Of a stretch of DNA of 64,000 nucleotides, positions 42,254 through 42,656 are shown in pieces. Both the position numbers and the translations under genes were made by a program. The stretch is taken from NCBI GenBank assembly GCA_029260495.1, contig JAJDDD010000009.1, positions 684,266-748,265 on the forward strand, written 5' to 3'. Within the stretch, counting starts at the first letter, position 1, and each line of letters opens with the position of its first letter. This stretch comes from Phycisphaerales bacterium (GTDB lineage: Bacteria > Planctomycetota > Phycisphaerae > Phycisphaerales > UBA1924). Under the pieces are notes generated by a model. It ran no database searches, was not told where the DNA came from, and saw only the letters and a program-made list of their open reading frames with translations.

Positions 42254-42656
42254 GCGCTCGTAGCTCAGCAGGACAGAGCAGCGGTTTCCTTCTGTGAAAA
42301 GAGGGGCCCGGTCTGGCGACAGATCGAGGCGAACCGGGTGAATTCGGGGAAGCCCACACTTCGCAAACCATGCGAAACGGGTAATCCCGAGCCGAGCCGT
42401 CGTCGGGATGCGTCGCGGCGCCAAGCCTCCTTATGGAAAGCTTGTGCTCGTGAGGCTGGTCGGCGGAAGGTGTAGAGGCCAGCGGGTGAGCGGTCCCAGC
42501 AATACGCCCGCGTAGGGAGAGATGATTTTTGGCTCCCGAAGCGCCCGGCGGCCACGGTGACGAATGTCGTCGGGGTCGAAGAGATGGTGCAGGCCGGCGG
42601 GAAACCGACGGATCAACTGAAACCGCAGGTCGGAGGTTCGAGTCCTCCCGGGCGCA
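42254..42656 (+). tRNA. tRNA-Arg(CCU), interrupted by a group I intron
   Basis: Two exons, 42254-42290 (37 nt) and 42620-42656 (37 nt), fold into a complete tRNA: acceptor GCGCTCG/CGGGCGC (one G-U pair), D stem GCTC/GAGC, anticodon stem GCGGT/ACCGC, loop TTCCTAA with anticodon CCT at 34-36, variable loop AGGTC, T stem GGAGG/CCTCC with TTCGAGT loop, discriminator A; CCA is not encoded. The anticodon reads AGG codons. The intron sits immediately after position 36. Unspliced, the tRNA could not fold or function. Confidence 0.93.
42291..42619 (+). ncRNA. group I self-splicing intron in tRNA-Arg(CCU)
   Basis: 329 nt. P1: exon/intron strand 42287-42293 pairs with 42300-42306, placing the exon's last U (42290) in the required U-G wobble. 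P2: 42307-42312/42333-42338. P4: 42344-42349/42385-42390. P5: 42352-42355/42379-42382, capped by hairpin 42360-42365/42371-42376. Q-like AATCCCGAGCC, R-like GTGTAGAGGCC (42470-42480) and S-like AAGAGATGGTGC (42579-42590) elements are in the correct order. P9 has a GAAA tetraloop (42598-42607). The last intron base is G42619. No endonuclease ORF. Resembles bacterial tRNA introns of the IC3 type. One P7 position is noncanonical. Confidence 0.9.

Follow-up and report, generated by a model that had tools for sequence, protein, structure and literature searches.

The described system closest to the one reported here is the group I intron of the alphaproteobacterial tRNA-Arg(CCU) gene (Agrobacterium; BbgpI of Bartonella), which splices in vivo and self-splices in vitro (PMC7717549; sources with PMC numbers are cited throughout for their accessible passages). 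Group I introns also lie in other bacterial anticodon loops, i.e., those of tRNA-Ile(CAU) in Azoarcus and of tRNA-Leu(UAA) and tRNA-fMet in cyanobacteria (PMC4033280, PMC8450103), a comparison in which our direct alignment is with a single intron (L102, below). The Azoarcus and Synechococcus introns are called IC3 in a title cited by PMC3984707. Introns in tRNA-Ile2 are given for Acidovorax and Burkholderia by PMC8450103, together with 36 genomes whose fMet or Ile2 genes were missed by the program through such introns; going by the accessible passages, these 36 may include Isosphaerales. As hosts of such introns in bacterial tRNA genes, the accessible passages of PMC4033280 name cyanobacteria, alphaproteobacteria and betaproteobacteria, and Planctomycetota are absent from that list.

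Two other kinds of bacterial intron are comparable by description. Those of tmRNA genes are short, have a P7.1 region, lie in a tRNA-like gene and in a few cases carry nuclease genes; they differ from the introns studied here in sitting in the T loop, not the anticodon loop, and their nucleases were found by LAGLIDADG homology (PMC11915505). The group IA2 introns of IStrons share with the present ones P7.1 and P7.2 in domain 7 but have P9.0, P9.1 and P9.2 and accompany transposase genes (PMC4227781), whereas the planctomycete introns have only P9.0 and P9 and lie in tRNA genes. Class IA2 is described as having the two hairpins P7.1 and P7.2 plus an extended domain 9 (PMC4227781), and P7.1 and P7.2 are among the features that sort group I classes (PMC3984707).

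An interrupted tRNA-Arg(CCU) gene in a planctomycete

The window (the whole stretch of 64,000 nucleotides that was analysed) encodes on its forward strand a tRNA-Arg(CCU) gene, at 42254-42656, that is split exactly between the anticodon base U36 and A37 by 329 nt (Table 1). The initial annotation had described two perfect halves of this tRNA with such an insert after position 36, which can be read directly in the sequence: the 5' half ends in ...GCGGTTTCCT, and the joined halves give a 74-nt tRNA-Arg(CCU) in ARAGORN. With the insert present, neither ARAGORN nor Rfam at gathering sees a tRNA at this place. The host had been called a planctomycete, and named members of its family are indeed labelled Phycisphaerales or Phycisphaeraceae.

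A second intact tRNA-Arg(CCU) gene had been named as what would turn the interrupted one into a pseudogene. The window genome (22 contigs) has 44 Rfam tRNA hits, with anticodons taken from 42 of them (one unnameable by ARAGORN) and from the 2 in the window, and no further CCU tRNA is among these 44; the assembly is 96.8% complete, so a second copy is possible in the missing part. The other arginine anticodons are ACG (two), CCG and UCU, and no tRNA-Leu(UAA) was seen among the same 44 hits. Both exons are free of decay, the joined exons fold as a tRNA and the gene is the sole copy found, as befits a functional gene. The tRNA-like gene L070 (G000:C15:28062-28234, minus strand), unnameable by ARAGORN, has a six-base anticodon loop and 47.8 bits in Rfam. 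When the flanks of the window locus were compared by blastn with 53 loci (52 from other genomes, some twice), the sole match was to the window itself in a second copy, and the comparison thus yielded no syntenic empty site.

Table 1. Features of the interrupted tRNA-Arg(CCU) gene of the window. Double changes are pairs changed on both sides among the 23 tRNA-Arg introns compared.
Feature	Position	Strand	Remarks
5' half of tRNA-Arg(CCU)	42254-42290	+	last base is U36
Group I intron, 329 nt	42291-42619	+	TCTGTG...CAACTG
P1	42287-42306	+	exon 42287-42290 and intron 42291-42292 with guide 42301-42306; U42290.G42303 at the 5' splice site; double changes at both intron-side pairs (4 and 5 sequences)
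P2	42307-42329	+	double changes in 6/8 pairs
P3, 5' strand	42334-42340	+	partner 42542-42548; one pair with double change
P4 enclosing P5	42343-42391	+	P4 42343-42348/42386-42391; P5 42353-42355/42379-42381; near-constant, little covariation
P6 and P6a	42392-42470	+	P6a with double changes in 4/6 pairs; P6 constant
P7, 5' strand	42475-42481	+	G at 42478, mostly A elsewhere; G in 4/23 including the window
P7.1 with inner hairpin	42482-42511	+	covaries in the family; inner pair 42492-42498 is a G.A mismatch in the window copy
P7.2 hairpin	42515-42537	+	predicted from window fold; variable, no room in some relatives
P3, 3' strand	42542-42548	+	pairs with 42334-42340
P8	42549-42578	+	double changes at two pairs (9 and 7 sequences)
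P7, 3' strand	42585-42590	+	42589 is G; C in the 22 other aligned tRNA-Arg introns
P9.0 enclosing P9	42591-42618	+	P9.0 42591-42592/42617-42618, first pair GC in 15, AU in 4 and GU in 4; P9 42594-42611, inner pairs kept in only 78.3% of cells
Terminal G of intron	42619	+	23/23
3' half of tRNA-Arg(CCU)	42620-42656	+	AAACCGC...GGGCGCA; first base is A37

Family-wide comparison identifies a group I intron

A homologous insert was found in 9/80 relatives; eight of these could be parsed with both exons, the ninth (G040) being cut by a contig end, and one relative (G042) gives a match over nearly the full length (E 9.6e-62). At 17 of 20 other loci retrieved by exon match, the tRNA-Arg(CCU) gene is uninterrupted. 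For the analysis of covariation we used 23 tRNA-Arg introns (288-349 nt), of which 22, window included, belong to the family of the window and one comes from G282. Over these, 70 base pairs are paired in 97.6% of cells, against 29.8-51.5% when the partners are slid, and 24 of the 70 change on both sides, compared with 10.6 in shuffles (0/500 as high) and 4-8 in the slid controls. All core helices from P3 to P8 form, including the P3/P7 pseudoknot. P5, P6 and most of P7 are near-constant, and covariation therefore gives no test of these helices. Each of the 23 introns has the U.G pair at the 5' splice site, ends in G and restores a tRNA-Arg(CCU) when removed. P10 was not identified.

The anatomy, the exact restoration of the exons, the conserved and covarying pairing and the uninterrupted genes of relatives are observed features of this family, and by this comparison the insert is a group I intron of a family predicted to splice. 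The initial annotation, which had reached the same identity from the window alone, thus holds, also for the tRNA, the site after U36, the splice-site U-G pair in P1 and the terminal G; it had missed P7.1 and P7.2 as well as a mismatch in P7 (42477 versus 42589).

The search with the Rfam model Intron_gpI (RF00028) that had been proposed as a check gave 20.3 bits at 42278-42611 (E 0.0056 over the 451 bases searched), far below the gathering score of 50, which is a detection threshold and no structural feature. Among 17 loci of relatives and controls, the two that reach this score are introns in tRNA-Asn (79.6 and 83.7 bits); those that fail are 5/5 alphaproteobacterial tRNA-Arg intron loci, 6/6 named Phycisphaerae tRNA-Arg loci, L094, L095, L096 and L102. 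The threshold says little here, since it misses all five loci of the alphaproteobacterial kind known to self-splice in vitro. The predicted folding of the 403-nt stretch is equalled by 1/100 shuffles (z -2.57).

P7.1 is known as a mark of subgroup IA at large. The corresponding trait, P7.1 and P7.2 between P7 and P3, is present in the planctomycete introns, P7.1 by covariation and P7.2 in the window by fold only. An extended domain 9 (P9.1, P9.2) is absent, since the stretch from P7 to the 3' end has room for no more than P9.0 and P9, and we thus do not file the window intron as IA2.

Related introns in tRNA-Arg, tRNA-Ile and tRNA-Asn genes of Planctomycetota

We searched planctomycete samples at the levels of family, orders, class and phylum with two covariance models, R1 (the 3' core) and R2 (built with three planctomycete outliers added); both derive from the window and its relatives, whose scores are therefore not independent. 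Within the family of the window, R1 finds the intron in 23/163 genomes (window included) and 16/74 genera, a patchy distribution. In the phylum sample it has hits in 10/392 genomes, three of them outside the family and read by eye: G282 in tRNA-Arg(CCU), G543 in a tRNA with anticodon CAU and G375 in tRNA-Asn(GUU). R2 has hits in 19/397 genomes of the class sample (13 in the family, two in tRNA-Asn at L099 and L100, one in tRNA-Leu(UAA) at L102 and three taken as chance) and in 25/400 of the window's order (23 of the family, one from another family, G942, and G851, a presumed chance hit). The orders of G375, G615 and G282 have hits in 1/5, 2/78 and 1/3 genomes, respectively. At the same bond, 22 related insertions are present in other planctomycete genomes; outside the family, this bond is occupied in G282 and G942. 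The window genome has no second such intron, the next scores being 16.3 bits and lower. For the weak R2 hits L101 (in G851), L103 and L104, our script found no flanking tRNA halves, and we took them as chance.

In three genomes (L010, L087 and L091), the tRNA-Arg(CCU) that hosts the intron differs in its exons (GCTCCGG...CCGGAGC). These three introns form a group in the core tree described below (89/83), a grouping compatible with transfer of entire tRNA genes together with their intron. The L102 intron (about 1360-1660) splits tRNA-Leu(UAA) on a 7 kb contig of an assembly of the window's class; it is a group I intron without P7.1, which we take to resemble the cyanobacterial tRNA-Leu(UAA) kind, and either transfer or contamination would account for its presence there.

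In the Isosphaerales (the order of G543), 40/45 genomes and 19/21 genera have model hits. At each of the 13 loci that we read (28 further hits lie outside this reading), a CAU tRNA is split after U36. Carriers include Isosphaera pallida ATCC 43644 and Singulisphaera acidiphila DSM 18658. In the two-contig genome of I. pallida, 47 Rfam tRNA hits correspond to 47 ARAGORN genes, two with anticodon CAU and one unnameable, and the interrupted gene is a third CAU gene. By their features, the two intact ones are presumably fMet and Met, and the interrupted one is thus most likely tRNA-Ile(CAU), in which case the reading of AUA would depend on its splicing. The number of 47 tRNA genes is also that given for this genome by PMC5352709, where the word "intron" does not occur in the accessible text.

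Introns in tRNA-Asn(GUU) occur in three genomes, inserted one base earlier than in tRNA-Arg and tRNA-Ile, i.e., after U35. Two of them, L099 and L100, carry frames (136 and 138 codons) with PHROGs matches to HNH endonuclease families of phages (E 1.6e-28 and 3.1e-27); Pfam and NCBIfam give these frames no name, and the PDB has nothing firm. The interrupted gene at L099 (minus strand) is preceded, 100 bases upstream, by another tRNA-Asn 5' end, which is broken (918 and 1018 of the reversed locus) and is perhaps a scar of intron movement. Comparison of the window intron with phages by blastn gave 19 records; the best 10 of the 19 align with 15-18% of the query and fall within tail or repressor genes, and we took them as chance.

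The window copy has a broken pair in P7

In the window, 42589 is a G, whereas the other 60 of 61 sequences aligned over the core (alphaproteobacterial, Ile, Asn and Leu introns included) have a C. We take this position to be C311 of the guanosine-binding pair G264-C311 in Tetrahymena numbering. The predicted guanosine-binding pair, G-C in the 22 other aligned tRNA-Arg introns, is thus a G.G mismatch in the window copy, which we assign to the family by descent and structure because this pair is absent from it. Since the pair is broken, we put the chances that the window copy still splices at about even; it may be inactive, slow or mis-sequenced in the assembly.

The window copy could accordingly be a decaying intron that no longer splices, in an otherwise functional family, with tRNA-Arg(UCU) reading AGG by wobble. 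Besides G42589, the neighbouring pair is weakened to G.U, the inner pair of P7.1 is mismatched, and the copy has 5 changes at columns invariant in the other 8 sequences of our alignment A1 (against 1-4 in seven of the sequences and 18 in the most distant); the genome does encode a tRNA-Arg(UCU), which could cover AGG. Against decay, the exons are perfect, the other core helices are intact, the A-to-G change at 42478 is common to three other tRNA-Arg introns and keeps a G.U pair, and a single wrong base in the assembly would account for the worst change. We regard decay as a possibility, somewhat short of an even chance. A more elaborate proposal is that the intron splices through a re-formed guanosine site (e.g., G42477-C42590 with G42589 bulged out) and that, at the same time, the planctomycete introns are one old lineage that passed from tRNA to tRNA by guide change, reached the alphaproteobacterial bond independently and became near-universal in the tRNA-Ile of Isosphaerales. 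As a whole, this proposal seems unlikely to us.

Probable separate occupation of the alphaproteobacterial bond

To collect alphaproteobacterial introns, we scanned named genomes with a pattern for interrupted tRNA-Arg(CCU). It matched at least 119 stretches; among the matches listed, 103 could be parsed as half, insert and half, and 16 could not. A loose motif divides the 103 parsed among the matches listed into 80 of alphaproteobacterial type, 11 of planctomycete type and 12 of neither, these 12 being nine from alphaproteobacterial records and three that resemble tRNA scars. In the latter (L139, L186 and L215), a tRNA-Arg(CCU) 5' part precedes another with an intact 3' part, and the inserts end in T; by appearance, these are tandem or integration scars rather than introns.

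The alphaproteobacterial and planctomycete introns share the tRNA, the bond after U36, the terminal G and similar sequence in P4-P6 and J6/7, but differ in P3 and J8/7. Lengths are 212-318 nt in the alphaproteobacterial introns parsed (the longest with masked bases), against those given above for the planctomycete ones. A further difference lies in domain 7: in the nine alphaproteobacterial introns examined, P7 runs straight into P3 without P7.1 or P7.2, whereas the planctomycete ones have a conserved P7.1 with its inner hairpin and, in most, a variable P7.2. Across 40/40 alphaproteobacterial loci there is no room for P7.1, and R2 scores them at 20-32 bits over only 63-80 nt, against 72-117 bits on 11/11 planctomycete loci.

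We then compared the introns in a core tree of 93 columns and 61 rows: 24 planctomycete tRNA-Arg introns, 13 Ile, 3 Asn, 20 alphaproteobacterial tRNA-Arg (sampled as every fourth of the motif-bearing introns free of masked bases) and 1 Leu. One branch, with support 100/99, separates the 40 planctomycete rows from the 20 alphaproteobacterial ones and the Leu row; as the root may lie among the planctomycete rows, this is no proof of a clade. The core of the window intron appears to group with the tRNA-Ile(CAU) introns of planctomycetes and, less firmly, with the tRNA-Asn(GUU) ones: the three Asn rows are unplaced (51/82), and L099 has a shorter path to the Leu row (0.21) than to the Arg rows (0.23). 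Constraining the tRNA-Arg introns to a single group gives a tree worse by 17.4 log units (p-AU 0.08), which is thereby disfavoured but not rejected. The columns of P7.1, which agree with the tree, were kept out of it except for two at the border.

The introns of the two groups might nonetheless go back to one insertion, or the planctomycete one might have come from alphaproteobacteria, with P7.1 and P7.2 gained later or lost on the alphaproteobacterial side. The common tRNA and bond, the similar P4-P6 and J6/7 sequences and the p-AU value for a single clade speak for this, and the missing P7.1, the different P3 and the place of the planctomycete tRNA-Arg introns on the side of the Ile and Asn ones in the best tree speak against it; we find it quite improbable. 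A reading of the insert as no ribozyme but another kind of mobile or integrated element is so improbable that we set it aside: tRNA genes are common integration sites, and 3/103 parsed stretches among the matches listed look like tandem tRNA scars with inserts ending in T, but the group I helices covary, P1, P3, P8 and P9.0 included, and two relatives pass RF00028. Two structural kinds of group I intron have thus probably reached the same bond separately. The comparison with alphaproteobacterial introns, proposed in the initial annotation as bearing on transfer or ancient descent, favours neither transfer from alphaproteobacteria nor common descent, but separate occupation, at the p-AU value above and with a patchy distribution in the family.

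Discussion

Taken as a whole, the locus very probably harbours a group I intron of the kind found here in Planctomycetota, with P7.1 and often P7.2, that arrived at this bond by separate colonisation. Catalysis in the family would follow the usual two steps. A guanosine held in P7 would attack after U36, itself held in the U.G pair of P1 by the guide of the intron; the freed exon would then attack after the last G of the intron, so that U36 and A37 become linked and the anticodon loop is whole again. Genes for tRNA-Ile(CAU) and tRNA-Asn(GUU) contain similar introns, with an HNH frame in two of the Asn ones, which makes movement between tRNA genes probable, and with such movement the presence at the alphaproteobacterial bond is best read as a separate colonisation. 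We thus consider it likely that a change of guide sequence took this kind of intron from one tRNA gene to another, with or without an HNH nuclease.

Our search of the open-access literature (subscription journals and preprints being outside its scope) found, among the titles listed, none reporting tRNA group I introns in planctomycetes. Planctomycetota would thus be an added phylum relative to the host list in the accessible passages of PMC4033280, with a structure that is absent from the alphaproteobacterial tRNA-Arg intron. The bond in tRNA-Arg, used by two kinds of ribozyme, offers a clean case for asking why it is favoured. The tRNA-Ile intron of the Isosphaerales would be order-wide, comparable in this to the tRNA-Leu intron of cyanobacteria, and is present in sequenced type strains, which makes it amenable to laboratory test. 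In I. pallida, the tRNA presumably needed to read AUA was found only in interrupted form.
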